Assembly: GCF_003206135.1 (NCBI RefSeq)
Contig: NZ_PZJT01000003.1
Location: 227,200 to 291,199 of the forward strand
Direction: 5' to 3'
Length of the DNA: 64,000 bases
From: Salinicola salarius
GTDB lineage: Bacteria; Pseudomonadota; Gammaproteobacteria; Pseudomonadales; Halomonadaceae
Made by a program: the position numbers and the translations under genes. Positions 45,959-53,097 of this stretch are shown one piece after another (position 1 is the first letter of the stretch; each line of letters begins with the position of its first letter). The notes beneath the pieces were generated by a model, which made no database searches, had not been told where the DNA came from, and saw only the letters and a list, made by a program, of their open reading frames with translations.

Positions 45959-48205
45959 TCATTGCGGATCCGGCGCGCCCGGTGCCGTCACCGATTCTCT
46001 TGGCCCGGTGCTGCCGGCAGCCACCGGCGCCTGTTCCATCACCACGCTCATTCGCGGCATGGCCAGGTCGATGCCCTGCTCGTCGAAGCGCTGCTTGAGA
46101 CGCAAATTGAAGGCACGCGCCACGTCCCACTGCATGATCGGCGCCGTACGCATGCGAACCCGCAGGATGGCCGCGCCGGCATCGAAGCTCTCGATCCCCT
46201 GGACCTCCAGCGCGGACCAGATGTAGTGGCGCATCATCGGGTCGTTGCGCAGGTCCTCGGCGATCCCGCGCACGATCTCGATCGCCTCGTCGATCTTCAT
46301 GTGATGGGCGATACGGATTCGCATCAACGCGATACCGAATTCCCGGGAGTAGTTCTGAATTCCCTGGATCTGGCTGAACGGAATGATATGCACGATACCG
46401 TCCAGGTCGCGCAATTTGACGGTACGGATACTCAGCGCCTCGACCGTACCCATGTGCGATCCCAGGTTGACGAAGTCGTCGATCGCCAGGGAGTCCTCGA
46501 TCAGGATGAACAGCCCGGTAATGAGATCCTGGACCAGCGTCTGGGCGCCGAAACCGACTGCCAGACCGATGACACCGGCACCCGCCAGCAGCGGCGTCAC
46601 GTTCACGCCCAGGTTCGCCAGTGCAATGATGAAAGCGATCACCGCGATGGTCACGAAGACGGTGTTGCGCAACAGCGGCGTGATGGTCTGGGCGCGGGCA
46701 CTGGCATTGGCCCGACGACCATGGCGGCGGCTGCTGCGCAACAGCGCGTGCTTGATCGCGGTATCGGCCAGAATCCACACCAGCCACGCCACCAGGAACG
46801 TCATCCCCAGGCCGAAGACGCCCTTGGCGATCTGCTGGCCGATACCCGCCGAGCCGCCTACGGCCCAGAGCGACGAACCCCAGACCCGCATCGCCAGTTC
46901 GGCGAAGATTACCCAGCTCACCAGGTGGGCCAGCGTGAAACCGAAGCGCACCAGCCGTGACGCATACTCCGATGAGGATTTCTCCCGGGCGTTCTCGCCG
47001 CGCCGATGAATCAGCCCGGTGACGACCAGCGTCGCGATCATGAGACCCGCGGTCACGATCGCCCGGAAGAACGCGCTGCGCGAATCCTCAGCGGACAGGA
47101 TCATCGCGATCAGCGAGACTCCCACCATGATCAGAATCGGGATGTGCCAGATCCGGCTGAACGCACGGATCAGTTCCGTCGTCGCACGACGTTCCTGACG
47201 CTGCGAGTAGGGTCGGTTGCGAATCAGATGCCGGATGGGGCGCCGGAACACCATGACGAAGATGCCCAGCAGCAGGGCGGCGCAGACATTGGCAACCAGC
47301 GCAACGAGCGCCGTCAGCCCTTCGCCCAGTGGCACTACCAGCGCCTCGGCATGCGCGGCATCGCCCAGCGCGACCAGCGCGCCAAGCGCGAACAACCAGC
47401 GGGCGCCACGCTGGCGCAATATGCGCAGCGCCGTGTGTCGATGGCCGTTGCCGAACAGCGAGAAGACGATTTCACAGACCGAAGAGAAGACCGCCCCGCA
47501 AAGCGTGGCGTAGGCCGCGACCATGGCCAGAGCGATACCCACCGATGCGGATTCGACCTGATGGACGGTCGTCAGCGCGACGGCGAAGCCGATGGCCAAT
47601 GGCACCACGCGCCGGATGATGTGGCGGATCAGCATCCAGGTCGTCGGATCCTCGGGCAAGTGCCAGGGCAACCCAAACTGACGCACCGCCCAGCGCCAGA
47701 GCATGGCGATCAGCAACGTCACGCCGACCCACAATCCCGTCACCCACAGCAGGTCCAGCAGGATGCCCTGCAACCGCCGAGGATCGTCGAGCAGCCCCGA
47801 CACATCCTTGCCCGCCTGGCTGGCCCGCGCCGACCAGTACCGAATCGGGTTGTCGAGCCCGTCCGTCTCCAGCGATGAAAACGATTGCGCCAGTGCGCCC
47901 AATAGCCCGGCCGAACCGCTCGCCTGTTCGGTATCCGCCGCGGTGACGTCGCGCAATTGCTTGAGATGGTCAAGCAAGGCCTGGCGCTGGTCGCTGTTTT
48001 CGAGTGTGGCGATGATCTGATCGAGGGAAGTGCGCAGCTCTTGCGGAGACGGCGCCGATGCCGCACTCGGCTCGCTGCTCTGACCGCCGCCCACCAGTGA
48101 TGTCAAGGACTGCGCCGATGCCGGCAGACTGATCATCAACGTCAGGGCCAGCACCCACATCCATCCCAACTGTCTCAATCCGCTCACGGTGACTCCTGTC
48201 TGCAT
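45959..48205 (-). CDS. ybiO: MscS-type mechanosensitive channel, YbiO-like
   Basis: A 748-residue inner-membrane channel. A signal peptide (about 1-31) precedes a periplasmic region with Gln- and Ser-rich segments, then about nine to ten membrane helices. The C-terminal MscS domain begins near residue 530 with TPLLAGAGVIGLAVGFGAQTL, the pore helix, followed by IEDSLAIDDFVNLGSHMGTVE. Length and layout match E. coli YbiO (741 residues). It would release solutes on hypo-osmotic shock, which suits a halophile. Convergent with the LysR gene. Confidence 0.88.
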   Translation of the reverse strand: MQTGVTVSGLRQLGWMWVLALTLMISLPASAQSLTSLVGGGQSSEPSAASAPSPQELRTSLDQIIATLENSDQRQALLDHLKQLRDVTAADTEQASGSAGLLGALAQSFSSLETDGLDNPIRYWSARASQAGKDVSGLLDDPRRLQGILLDLLWVTGLWVGVTLLIAMLWRWAVRQFGLPWHLPEDPTTWMLIRHIIRRVVPLAIGFAVALTTVHQVESASVGIALAMVAAYATLCGAVFSSVCEIVFSLFGNGHRHTALRILRQRGARWLFALGALVALGDAAHAEALVVPLGEGLTALVALVANVCAALLLGIFVMVFRRPIRHLIRNRPYSQRQERRATTELIRAFSRIWHIPILIMVGVSLIAMILSAEDSRSAFFRAIVTAGLMIATLVVTGLIHRRGENAREKSSSEYASRLVRFGFTLAHLVSWVIFAELAMRVWGSSLWAVGGSAGIGQQIAKGVFGLGMTFLVAWLVWILADTAIKHALLRSSRRHGRRANASARAQTITPLLRNTVFVTIAVIAFIIALANLGVNVTPLLAGAGVIGLAVGFGAQTLVQDLITGLFILIEDSLAIDDFVNLGSHMGTVEALSIRTVKLRDLDGIVHIIPFSQIQGIQNYSREFGIALMRIRIAHHMKIDEAIEIVRGIAEDLRNDPMMRHYIWSALEVQGIESFDAGAAILRVRMRTAPIMQWDVARAFNLRLKQRFDEQGIDLAMPRMSVVMEQAPVAAGSTGPRESVTAPGAPDPQ

Positions 48206-48411
48206 GCCTATCGAGCCTTCGATGGCTTGTCGTCGGACATCATGCTATCCAAGGGGAGTCACGACAACGCCAAACCGATTTTGGTCCTGACCTCGATGCT
48301 GCTCTATCTTCAACAGACGCGTCTGACAGAAGCCCTCTCTGGGTGTTATCTGAAACGTCGGCGCGCCTCGATCGAAGTGTCACGCAAGGATTCCTACGCA
48401 AGGAGAGCAAC

Positions 48412-49176
48412 ATGCGCCTTTCAGGCAAGGTGGCCCTGGTCACCGGCAGCACCCAGGGCATCGGCCGTGCCGTCGCCGAACGACTCGCCCAGGCCGGCGC
48501 CGATGTAGTCGTCAGCGGCAGCCGTCCTTCCGAGCGCGCCGAGGAAACCGCAGCGCGCGTTCGCGCCCACGGCCGAAGAGCCGCGATCGTCACCGGTGAC
48601 ATCGGCGATGTCGAGACCAACCGGCGCCTGATCGATGAGAGCGTCGAGGCCATGGGCCGGCTGGATATCCTGGTCAACAACGCCGGCCTGGAGATCGACT
48701 CCCCTTTTCTGGACCTCGACGAGGCTGACTATGACAAGGTCATGCAGACCAATCTGAAAGGCGTCTTCTTCACGACCCAGGCCTTCGTTCGCCATCTGCG
48801 TGACGAAGGCCGCGGCGGCCGCGTGATCAACATGAGTTCGGTGCATGAGGATCTGCCGTTTCCAGGCTTTACCAGCTATTGCATGAGCAAGGGCGGCATG
48901 CGCATGCTGACCCGCAACCTGGCCGTCGAGCTGGCGCCGCTCGGGATCACGGTCAACAGCGTGGCGCCCGGCGCGATCAAGACACCGATCAATTCGGCAC
49001 TCGACGAAGATCCGGAGAAGCTGCGCCATCTGCTTGGCAACATTCCGCTCAACCGGCTGGGCCGACCCGAAGACGTGGCCGGCGTGGTCGAATTCCTGGC
49101 CTCGGACGACGCCGACTACATGACTGGGGCATCGCTGCCGGTAGATGGTGGCCTGCTATGGCAATATGAGGAATGA
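48412..49176 (+). CDS. Short-chain dehydrogenase (glucose 1-dehydrogenase-like)
   Basis: A 254-residue classical SDR. TGSTQGIG near residue 12 binds NAD(P), NNAG near 88, and the catalytic set is S in NMSSVH with YCMSK near 155. The C-terminus, MTGASLPVDGGLLW, is typical of the glucose 1-dehydrogenase/3-oxoacyl-ACP reductase-like subgroup. The ATG at 48412 has AAGGAGAG 5 nt upstream. The substrate is unknown. It lies directly before the trehalase on the same strand. Confidence 0.9.
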   Translation: MRLSGKVALVTGSTQGIGRAVAERLAQAGADVVVSGSRPSERAEETAARVRAHGRRAAIVTGDIGDVETNRRLIDESVEAMGRLDILVNNAGLEIDSPFLDLDEADYDKVMQTNLKGVFFTTQAFVRHLRDEGRGGRVINMSSVHEDLPFPGFTSYCMSKGGMRMLTRNLAVELAPLGITVNSVAPGAIKTPINSALDEDPEKLRHLLGNIPLNRLGRPEDVAGVVEFLASDDADYMTGASLPVDGGLLWQYEE

Positions 49177-49191
49177 TGGTGCCGCTGTTTT

Positions 49192-49315
49192 GCCATCGAT
49201 AATGTTTTTTGCATCGTCAATGCTTTTGCCATCGTTAATGCTTTTGACATCGCCCATGTTTCGCGATCGACAAGGCTTTGTCAGAGATAATATTTTCGCC
49301 ACCGACAATGTGTTC
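49192..49315. repeat. Seven degenerate ~18-bp tandem repeats before treF
   Basis: Units close to GCCATCGTTAATGCTTTT recur with a period of 17-19 bp at 49192, 49211, 49228, 49246, 49263, 49281 and 49298, then stop 17 bp before the treF start. The later copies are more diverged. The array fills almost the whole gap between the SDR and trehalase genes. Confidence 0.75.
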
Positions 49316-49332
49316 GTCACACAGGAAAAGGC

Positions 49333-50889
49333 ATGCTCGACAGTATTCAGGTGAAGTTCGAAGACGCTGAATCCATAGACGAAGCGGCGGTCACGCCTTA
49401 TGACCGTTACGGGGAGTTGTTCGAAGCGGTCGCTCTTGCCCATATCTTTCATGATTCCAAGACGTTTGCCGACTGCATCCCGCAGCTGCCACCCGCGCAG
49501 ATCATGGAGGCCTACGAGCAGCAGCGAAACCGGCCAGGATTCGATCTGAGAGCCTTCGTGGCCGATCATTTCTACAGTGACATGCTCCCCGGCAAGGGCT
49601 ACGAGTCCCGCCCCGAGCACGACCTGGTCACGCATATCGATAGTCTCTGGCCCATCCTCACCCGCAATTCCCGCCAGCACCCGCGCTGGTCGTCGCTGCT
49701 CGAACTGTGCCATGACTATGTCGTCCCCGGTGGACGCTTCCGCGAGTACTACTACTGGGATTCCTACTTCACCATGCTGGGCTTGGCTGCCAGCGGTGAA
49801 AATCACCTGATGTGCGCCGTCACCGATAACTGTGCCGACCTGATCTCGCGCTACGGCCACATGCCCAACGGCAACCGCAGTTACTACCTGAGCCGCTCCC
49901 AGCCGCCGCTGTTCTCGATGATGGTCGAGCTGACCGAACGTCAGGGCTTGCGGAACGCCGTCGACTACTTGCCTCAACTGGAGCGGGAGTATGCCTTCTG
50001 GATGAATGGCGAAGAGAGGCTGTCGCCCGGAGAATCTCACCGACGCTGCGTCCGTCTAGACGAGGCGGCCTGGCTGAATCGCCACTGGGACGACCGCGCC
50101 ACGCCGCGGGAGGAGTCTTACCGCGAGGACTACGAGTTGGCCCAAGGCTCGGATCGCCCAGCGGAGCAGCTCTATCGCAATCTCCGCGCCGGCGCGGAAA
50201 CTGGTTGGGACTTCAGCGGTCGCTGGCTGGACGACGTGCAGAATCTCGGCTCGATCCGCACGACTCACTTCGTTACGCCGGAGCTCAATGCCCTGCTGTT
50301 TCACCTCGAGCAGACACTGGAACGTCTCCATGCCATCGTTGGCGACCATCGCAAGGCGGGAAACTTTCGACGTCGAGCCCTTCGCCGGCGGGCCGCCATG
50401 GATGAGTATCTATGGAGCGATTCGCGAGGCGCCTACTATGACTACGATTTCACGCGCGGCCGCAGTAGCGTTCACCTGACGGCCGCCTGCGTCGTCCCGC
50501 TGTTCGTCGGCGCAGCCTCCGAAGCACAGGCAGAGCGGGTTGCCAATATCGTCGCCAACCGCCTCATGGCGCCAGGCGGACTCGCCACCACGGAGATCAC
50601 CGATAGTCACCAGCAGTGGGACCATCCCAACGGCTGGGCACCGCTACAGTGGATGGCGACCGAAGGGCTGCGGCGCTACGGATTCACCGAACTCGCCGAC
50701 GACATCGCCGACCGCTGGCTGGCCCTGGTCGAGGATCTCTATCGCCGCGAACACAAGCTGGTCGAAAAGTACGTGCTCTACCCGGGCGCGGATTTCGCTA
50801 CCGGCGGCGAATATCCGCTGCAGGACGGCTTTGCCTGGACCAACGGCGTAACCCGGGCGTTACTCGCCCGACGCGCCGGGCACGAGTAA
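49333..50889 (+). CDS. treF: Cytoplasmic trehalase
   Basis: A 518-residue GH37 alpha,alpha-trehalase that hydrolyses trehalose to two glucose molecules. The two family signatures are complete: [15 protein letters not shown] near residue 137 and [12 protein letters not shown] near 433. With no signal peptide it matches TreF (549 residues in E. coli) rather than periplasmic TreA. AGGAAAAGGC precedes the ATG. It converges on glgB and their 3' ends overlap by 30 bp. Confidence 0.95.
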
Positions 50890-53097
50890 CACCACCCCCA
50901 GCGGCGGTAGCGTCAGCGAAATACTGGCCGTCTGCCCGTGCAGCGGCGCATCGAGGGCCTGGATCTGCCCCATGTTGCCCAGGTTGGATCCGCCATAGCA
51001 CTGCGCGTCGCTATTGAATATCTCCTCCCAGGCGCCCATGACCGGCACGCCGAGCCGATAATCGTGGCGCGGCACCGGGGTCATGTTGGCCACCACCAGC
51101 AGCGGCTCGCCGATCAGGTTCCAGCGCAGCCAGGCGAATACGCTGTTGGTGCTGTCGTCGCCCACCACCCAGGCGAAGCCCTCCGGCTCGGTGTCGCGCT
51201 GATGCAGCGGCGTCTTCTCCTGATAGAGCCGGTTGAGATCGCCGATCAGGCGCTGGATGCCGGCATGGTGAGACTCGCCGAGCAGCGACCAGTCGAGCTC
51301 GCGGTCGTGATTCCATTCGCGCCACTGACCGAACTCGCAGCCCATGAACAAGAGCTTCTTGCCGGGCTGGGTCCACATGATCGACAGGTAGGCGCGCAGG
51401 TTGGCGAACCGCTGCCATTCGTCGCCCGGCATCTTGTTGATCAGCGACCCCTTGCCGTGCACCACCTCGTCATGCGAGATCGGCAGCACGTACTTTTCGG
51501 AGAACGCGTAGACCATCGGAAAGGTCAGTTCGTGATGGGCATACGAGCGATAGACCGGATCCTTGGCGATGTACTCCAGGGTGTCGTGCATCCAGCCCAT
51601 GTTCCATTTGTAGGCAAAGCCCAGGCCGCCATCACGGGTTGGCTGGGTCACGCCCGGCCAGGCGGTGGATTCCTCGGCGATCACCACCGCGCCAGGCACC
51701 TCCTCCGCGACCACGTCGTTCAAATGGCGCAGGAATTCGATCGCCTCGAGATTCTCCTGGCCGCCGTATTGATTGGGAATCCACTCGCCCTCGTTGCGCG
51801 AGTAGTTGCGATACAGCATCGAGGCCACGGCATCGACGCGAAGCGCATCGATGTGGAAATGGCGCAGCCAGTACAGCGCCGAGGCCAGCATGAAGCCGTG
51901 CACCTCGCGCCGTCCCAGGTTGTAGATGTAGGTGTTCCAGTCCTGGTGGAAGCCCTCGAAAGGATGCTCGTACTCGTAGAGTGCCGTGCCATCGAAGCGC
52001 GCCAGACCATGCGGGTCGGTAGGAAAGTGCGCCGGCACCCAGTCGAGGATCACCCCAAGGCCAGCCTGGTGGCAGGCATCCACGAAGTAGGCGAAGTCCT
52101 CGGGCTTGCCAAAACGCCCGCTGGGCGCGAACTGGCTTAGTGGCTGGTAGCCCCAGGAGCCGCCGAAGGGATGTTCCATGATCGGCAGCAATTCGACGTG
52201 GGTGAACCCCATCCCGAGCACGTAGGGGATCAGGTGTTCGGTCAGGTCGCGCCAGCTATAGGTGACGCCGTCGTGCCCGCCATGCTTGCGCCACGAGGCG
52301 GCATGCACTTCATAGACGGAGATCGGCCGGTCGGGCGCCTGATGATCGCCGCGATGGGCGATCCACTCGGCATCGTGCCAGGTGAACGGCGTGGTATCGG
52401 CGACCACCGATGAGGTGTGCGGCGGCGTCTCGGTGGCCAGCGCCACCGGGTCGGCCTTGAGCGCGAGGGTGCCGTGGGCATCGAGAATCTCGTATTTGTA
52501 GGCTTCGCCCGGCCCCAGGCGGGGTATGAACAGCTCCCAGACCCCGGCGGGATGACGCAGGCGCATCACATGCCGCCGGCCGTCCCAGCCATTGAAGTTG
52601 CCCACCACCGAGACACGCCGAGCATTGGGCGCCCAGACGGCGAAGCGCACCCCGGACACGCCATCGATTTCCATCGACTGGGCGCCCAGGCAGTGCCCCA
52701 GGTTACGGTGATTGCCCTCGCCAATCAGGTAAAGATCCATCTCGCCGAGCAGCAGGTCGAACGAGTAGGGATCCTCGGTTTCCTGCTCGCCGCCTGGCCA
52801 GCGGATGCGCAGTTTATACGGCGCAACATGCGGCAACCTGCCGGCAAACAGCCCGGGCTTCTGGATGCCCGTCAGGCTGCAACGACGCTCGCCGGTATCA
52901 CGGTCGAGCACATCCACACCCAACGCACCGGGCAGGTAGACCCGCAGCAGACAGGTTTCCTCACTCTCCTCGCCACAGGCATGCACGCCGAGCACGGAAA
53001 ACGGGTTGCCGTGGCTACCCCGAACCAGCGCCTCGGCATCATCGGCGGACAACCAGAGGGCGTCGTCCTTGACGGTAGTGACGTTCAGATCGGTCAT
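50860..53097 (-). CDS. glgB: 1,4-alpha-glucan branching enzyme
   Basis: A 745-residue GH13 enzyme with an N-terminal CBM48 domain (about 120-215). It forms alpha-1,6 branches. The catalytic Asp is in [13 protein letters not shown] near residue 410, the Glu in [11 protein letters not shown] near 463, and [11 protein letters not shown] near 528 is the third conserved site. It overlaps the upstream treS gene by ATGA, completing the GlgE-pathway operon glgE-treS-glgB as in Pseudomonas. Confidence 0.96.

Follow-up and report, generated by a model that had tools for sequence, protein, structure and literature searches.

The window, i.e. the whole stretch of DNA analysed, is 64 000 nt long. Two of its plus-strand genes concern us here: a gene for an SDR-family oxidoreductase, glucose 1-dehydrogenase-like (48412–49176, stop codon at 49174–49176), and treF (49333–50889), encoding an alpha,alpha-trehalase of the TreF type with 518 aa. 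The upstream product matches Pfam adh_short_C2 / adh_short; its NCBIfam scores are 256.6 bits for NF005559, glucose 1-dehydrogenase (cut-off 215), and 264.1 for NF009384, SDR (cut-off 264). The downstream product matches Pfam PF01204 and scores 673 bits against NCBIfam NF009773 (cut-off 512); this places it in the TreF family, and an earlier note on this DNA, made from the letters alone, had correctly called it a trehalase. The SDR and treF products may act sequentially on trehalose. On the opposite strand, 3′ of treF, there are glgB and a fusion of treS with maltokinase. The source genome also has another trehalase homologue (G000:C10:22439–23938), which shares 44% identity with TreF.

The SDR-treF intercistronic spacer (49177–49332, plus strand) has a length of 156 bp and a GC content of 0.45, compared with 0.64 for the window. 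Close to its end is AGGA (49323–49326, plus strand), which, judging by the sequence and the alignments, is likely to be the Shine-Dalgarno-like core of treF; it sits within a CAGGRAA stretch retained in most close relatives. Positions 49188–49311 of the spacer are occupied by seven degenerate head-to-tail units of 17–18 bp, all read on the plus strand. With unit borders placed by eye, from the sequence and the output of TRF, units 1 to 4 (49188–49205, 49206–49223, 49224–49241 and 49242–49259) have 18 bp each; the diverged unit 5 (49260–49276) and the most diverged unit 6 (49277–49293) have 17 bp each; unit 7 (49294–49311), again of 18 bp, is the nearest to the single-copy spacer of the relatives and is probably ancestral. 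Pairwise identity ranges from 0.47 to 0.89 among all seven units and from 0.72 to 0.89 among units 1–4. The array is AT-rich (GC 0.41).

The repeat is far from what would be expected by chance. TRF reported it with period 18 at 49188–49252 (score 88) and with period 36 at 49186–49279, the latter with a score of 109, the top one among 52 rows in the 64-kb window. The fraction of matches at lag 18 was 0.51 in the 156-bp spacer, while in its shuffles the mean was 0.25 (sd 0.04) and the maximum 0.40; none of 2000 dinucleotide shuffles attained the lag-18 match of the spacer at any lag from 8 to 59. Comparable lag scores occur elsewhere in the window, with periods 15 and 33. The seven repeats of ∼18 bp that had been described upstream of treF are thus real by both TRF and shuffles, and the coordinates given for them were right to within a few bases. 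Two details need correction. The last unit ends at 49311, i.e. 21 bp before the treF ATG and not 17 bp, a figure counted from the end coordinate of that description; and 18 bp, said to be no codon multiple, is six codons, with the two 17-bp units breaking the phase.

An intergenic minisatellite is a tandem repeat located between genes, with a unit of about 10–60 bp. The treF array consists of head-to-tail copies more alike than expected by chance, as judged from the TRF scores and the shuffles; it is intergenic, and its copy number differs among close relatives, as follows.

The nearest matches to TreF come from Salinicola species, the closest one from the S. salarius relative genome (94% protein identity). 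We found an orthologous treF in 16 of the 17 other Salinicola genomes, with one genome per species; genome G008 had no match. In 15 of these 16 congeners a full homologue of the SDR (81–96% identity) ends just 5′ of treF. In the 16th, S. halophyticus, the SDR was lost save for its last 12 codons (L041:2909–2944), and treF thereby adjoins a mechanosensitive-channel gene. A homologue of the SDR (61–65% identity) was also located directly 5′ of treF at all 13 Stutzerimonas/Pseudomonas loci. At seven of them the SDR stop is four bases past the first matched treF codon, so that the genes overlap in at least seven loci; at the remaining six the stop is 32–74 bp before the first matched treF residue, and an ATG overlapping the SDR stop is present at 12 of the 13. 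Since the SDR precedes or overlaps treF at these loci too, the gap lies between the two cistrons of a long-standing gene pair, which are probably co-transcribed.

The array itself was not seen in any of the 16 congener spacers preceding an orthologous treF, either when these were read directly or when TRF was run at score 40 on the 170 bp immediately 5′ of the treF match, and a DNA search for the array was positive in one of the 18 genomes of the genus, namely the source genome. Spacers of the nine closest relatives have 43, 49, 49, 52, 52, 52, 52, 53 and 57 bp (that of S. halophyticus measured from the SDR remnant); those of the other seven congeners, with the farthest in-frame ATG taken as the start, have 26, 35, 36, 36, 36, 102 and 110 bp. 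If six units are subtracted from the 156-bp spacer of the source genome, 50 bp are left, a length within the 43–57 bp of the nine closest relatives. In a Salinicola MAG we saw an 18-bp array of 2.8 copies just 5′ of the SDR gene (L042:1864–2183, TRF score 60).

Which of the units is the founding one was addressed by alignments. When a single unit was retained in the spacer, unit 7 gave the best fit in seven of nine relatives, three of these seven having near-identical spacers; for G017 and S. avicenniae, unit 5 fitted better. Among 1000 shuffled units, those equalling unit 7 numbered 3 for S. salarius, 8 for S. socius and 1 for S. halophyticus; for the other six relatives, 215–439 of 1000 shuffled units matched as well as unit 7 did. 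Alignment of full spacers matched the sequence of the relatives chiefly to unit 7; the sequences of S. salarius and S. halophyticus were divided between two positions. When eight relatives (S. rhizosphaerae excluded) were aligned to the window, the extra DNA made a single block and the sequence of the relatives was placed at unit 1. As these two alignments disagree, the founding copy is uncertain. Three relatives have a single-copy spacer that unit 7 resembles, and the array thus looks like a tandem expansion of an older spacer; going by the sequence, the array was most likely built from spacer DNA that is older than the array.

What the array could do is another question. The earlier note had favoured a regulatory binding array for osmotic control of trehalose breakdown, in which the units would make an operator cluster for a regulator coupling treF expression to the osmotic state. 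The array is indeed directly 5′ of treF, and a CATCG core is repeated in units 1–4, being followed by AATG in units 1–3. However, an operator should be conserved upstream of orthologues, while the array is missing in 16 of 16 congeners that retain treF; it has no inverted repeats, its unit spacing shifts from 18 to 17 bp and the gap sits inside a conserved SDR-treF gene pair. The exact unit pattern, TTTNNCATCGNNAATG, has four matches in the genome, three in the array and one in a GpJ-like phage tail gene. When up to two mismatches were allowed, the genome gave 162 forward and 119 reverse matches and the backwards control 31 and 41, an excess that may stem from codon composition. In addition, arrays with other units exist in about one in nine of the sampled spacers of this genome (see below). 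A comparison of treF upstream regions among relatives had been proposed by the same note, and the finding of no repeats in any of the 16 congeners is one half of what it had named as speaking against regulation. We consider an operator cluster very improbable.

An open frame of 62 codons plus stop (49166–49354) crosses the array and shares bases with the end of the SDR gene and with the start of treF. One could think of a short leader peptide encoded by the array, as the frame is open and the 18-bp units hold phase across the first four copies; still, any stop-free unit of 18 bp necessarily yields a periodic frame that is open, the two 17-bp units shift the phase, the frame has no Pfam match and the congeners have no array. 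We see next to no chance that such a peptide is encoded.

Several other candidates were rejected. A search of 48100–51100 for Rfam cis-regulatory RNA, with E-values up to 1, gave one match, below the gathering score and outside the spacer. As to structured RNA, 189 of 200 shuffles of 49166–49362 folded at least as well as the native sequence. A C-rich, G-poor stretch of the Rho type was not seen (T46 C28 A27 G23). A dispersed or mobile repeat was dismissed, the exact unit pattern being found just once outside the array; a stricter pattern of two units had no exact match in viral contigs. The DNA search of 275 genomes of the family produced, besides the source genome, two matches of 31–32 bp, L141 (considered below) and L140, the latter outside long ORFs.

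It is also conceivable that the array arose neutrally and now alters treF expression, either by providing a new weak promoter or by a longer spacer that uncouples treF translation from the SDR. Two overlapping sigma70-like matches, weak ones with 9 of 12 positions, are present on the plus strand at 49267–49296, within units 5–7, compared with 0.4 (sd 0.6) such matches in shuffles of the 1.4-kb region. Two or more plus-strand matches appeared in just 0.4% of 1000 spacer shuffles; however, at least one appeared in 8.4% of them, and the two matches overlap and share one −35 element; the site is weak and located in diverged units. The spacer has roughly three times the length seen in the closest relatives, and tandem repeats of variable copy number in promoters are described for Mycobacterium tuberculosis in PMC12817950; on the other hand, the RNA 49166–49362 is not unusually structured (z +1.5). 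Taken as a whole, an effect on treF expression seems unlikely, if less so than an operator cluster. With its AT-richness and its weak promoter-like matches, the array may not be inert as far as can be told from sequence features.

To see how ordinary the treF array is for its genome, we used a census of spacers. Genes were predicted by a home-made codon-bias gene caller in 714 031 bases of the source genome, the window included; spacers of 30–600 bp were considered and a TRF array was counted if it had period ≥10 and score ≥50. Tandem arrays were found in 48 of the 423 sampled spacers (29 with score ≥70 and 11 with score ≥100) and in no shuffled spacer; the caller is crude, and at least one counted array, L171:4230–4342, looks like an in-frame coding repeat. 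The units have 12–38 bp and, by eye, their sequences differ from one array to another. Samples of the source genome with spacer arrays include L123, L126, L130, L131, L165, L166 and L167. An earlier version of the census, with a lower TRF score, had 44 of 294 gaps with an array.

In other Salinicola genomes arrays were observed in 18 of 230, 9 of 101 and 11 of 142 spacers. Genomes from the rest of the family had 7 of 107 (G027, GC 0.65), 1 of 107 (GC 0.56) and 3 of 128 (GC 0.59), and a genome of the order 2 of 108 (GC 0.54); shuffled spacers of these comparison genomes gave 0 or 1 array each. Stutzerimonas (GC 0.61) had none in 233 spacers (Fisher p 4e-10 versus the source genome). Genome G027, which is not Salinicola and has a similar GC, is nearly as rich in arrays as Salinicola, and GC may explain a part of the contrast in array rate between genomes. 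In the surroundings of treF, arrays were present in 0 of 42 spacers of Stutzerimonas/Pseudomonas, 1 of 27 at ten named Salinicola loci and 3 of 277 at 57 other loci. The low figure at the Salinicola loci counts against the minisatellite reading favoured below.

One could speculate that Salinicola, and maybe further members of the family with a high GC content, have an unusually active process continually making spacer minisatellites with units of 12–38 bp and rewriting the lengths of operon spacers, the treF array being one product and some of the arrays possibly regulatory; we regard this as a tentative proposal, somewhat more likely to be wrong than right.

Turnover was assessed in 124 of the 423 source spacers, those that could be paired with contig C1 of S. 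salarius. In 105 pairs neither genome had an array, and the median difference in length was 0 (IQR −1 to 1). Arrays were present in both genomes in five pairs and in just one genome in 14. Of the latter, nine were in the source genome only, with source minus S. salarius length differences of 1, 1, 11, 18, 24, 53, 60, 66 and 107 (the 66 is that of the likely coding array L171:4230–4342); the treF spacer, with 156 versus 49 bp, has the largest difference of the nine. The other five were in S. salarius only (−83, −37, −20, −16 and −2). The arrays differ in both directions, as expected of slippage. Two copies in the source genome versus one in S. salarius were seen in L176:9473–9566 and L122:11081–11130. 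At the orthologous spacer L175:5819–6003 there is a 14-bp repeat in the source genome and about seven 7-bp units in S. salarius.

Regarding local horizontal exchange, identity with S. salarius in 500-bp segments was 86–97% over 48001–51000, inside the range of 81–99% observed over 30001–63500. On the two sides of the treF spacer, the 200 bp of flanking DNA are 86% and 83% identical to S. salarius, the lowest values among 19 array-bearing pairs, and such an exchange at the treF spacer is conceivable.

We characterize the treF array as a lineage-specific, decaying minisatellite produced by tandem duplication of spacer DNA, a reading to which we assign a probability of roughly 0.85. In an SDR-treF spacer of roughly 50 bp, tandem duplication would have turned an 18-bp stretch into about seven copies and lengthened the spacer by 106 bp, probably through replication slippage or unequal recombination; the copies would then have diverged by point mutations and two 1-bp changes, presumably losses. 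The decaying minisatellite, which the earlier note had listed as its alternative, is well supported by the array-free congeners and by arrays with other units in many spacers. Given similar arrays in many other spacers of the genome, the treF array, located in an intercistronic spacer and ordinary for this genome, is most likely a common by-product of copying rather than a dedicated salt switch, and it probably has no dedicated function. Alone it matters little; it cautions against calling repeats in front of a stress gene regulatory before the relatives have been checked. The wider value is in the genus: as about one in nine sampled spacers of the source genome carries an array, and 14 of 124 orthologous spacers have one in just one of two close species, Salinicola is convenient for measuring the rate at which tandem duplication remodels operon spacers and for asking whether expression changes as a result.

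In a small search of the open literature (Salinicola with trehalose; tandem repeats with Halomonas) we found neither this array nor spacer arrays of the genus; the text of the Salinicola genome paper PMC5518125 contains neither the word 'tandem' nor 'trehalase'.

Within the family, a comparable case comes from another genus. L141:1438–1510 is an intercistronic array of 19-bp units (TRF scores 77 and 56), with 3.4 degenerate copies just before a start codon. It is located between a dUTPase gene and a gene of the phosphomannomutase family, genes that differ from the SDR-treF pair, and by eye its unit is similar to the dUTPase gene at the 3′ end of the latter. A 31-bp stretch there shares 87% identity with unit 7 and its tail, the treF leader (E-value 8.9e-4; one genome of the 275 searched); this likeness to the treF unit may be due to chance.

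Bacterial intergenic minisatellites, or VNTR loci, are like the treF array short units in tandem between genes that differ among close relatives; those counted in PMC2884548 had units of ≥20 bp and copies ≥90% alike, whereas the treF array has 18-bp units that are 47–89% alike and is known from one strain. The promoter tandem repeats of M. tuberculosis (lpdA, dop and cysG), according to PMC12817950, have units of 54–58 bp, are carried by promoters and vary among strains, whereas the treF array, with its 18-bp unit, is inside a gene pair, has no known promoter and is seen in one strain. Still, the repeats of both kinds end a few bases 5′ of a gene; the lpdA repeat ends 12 bp upstream.
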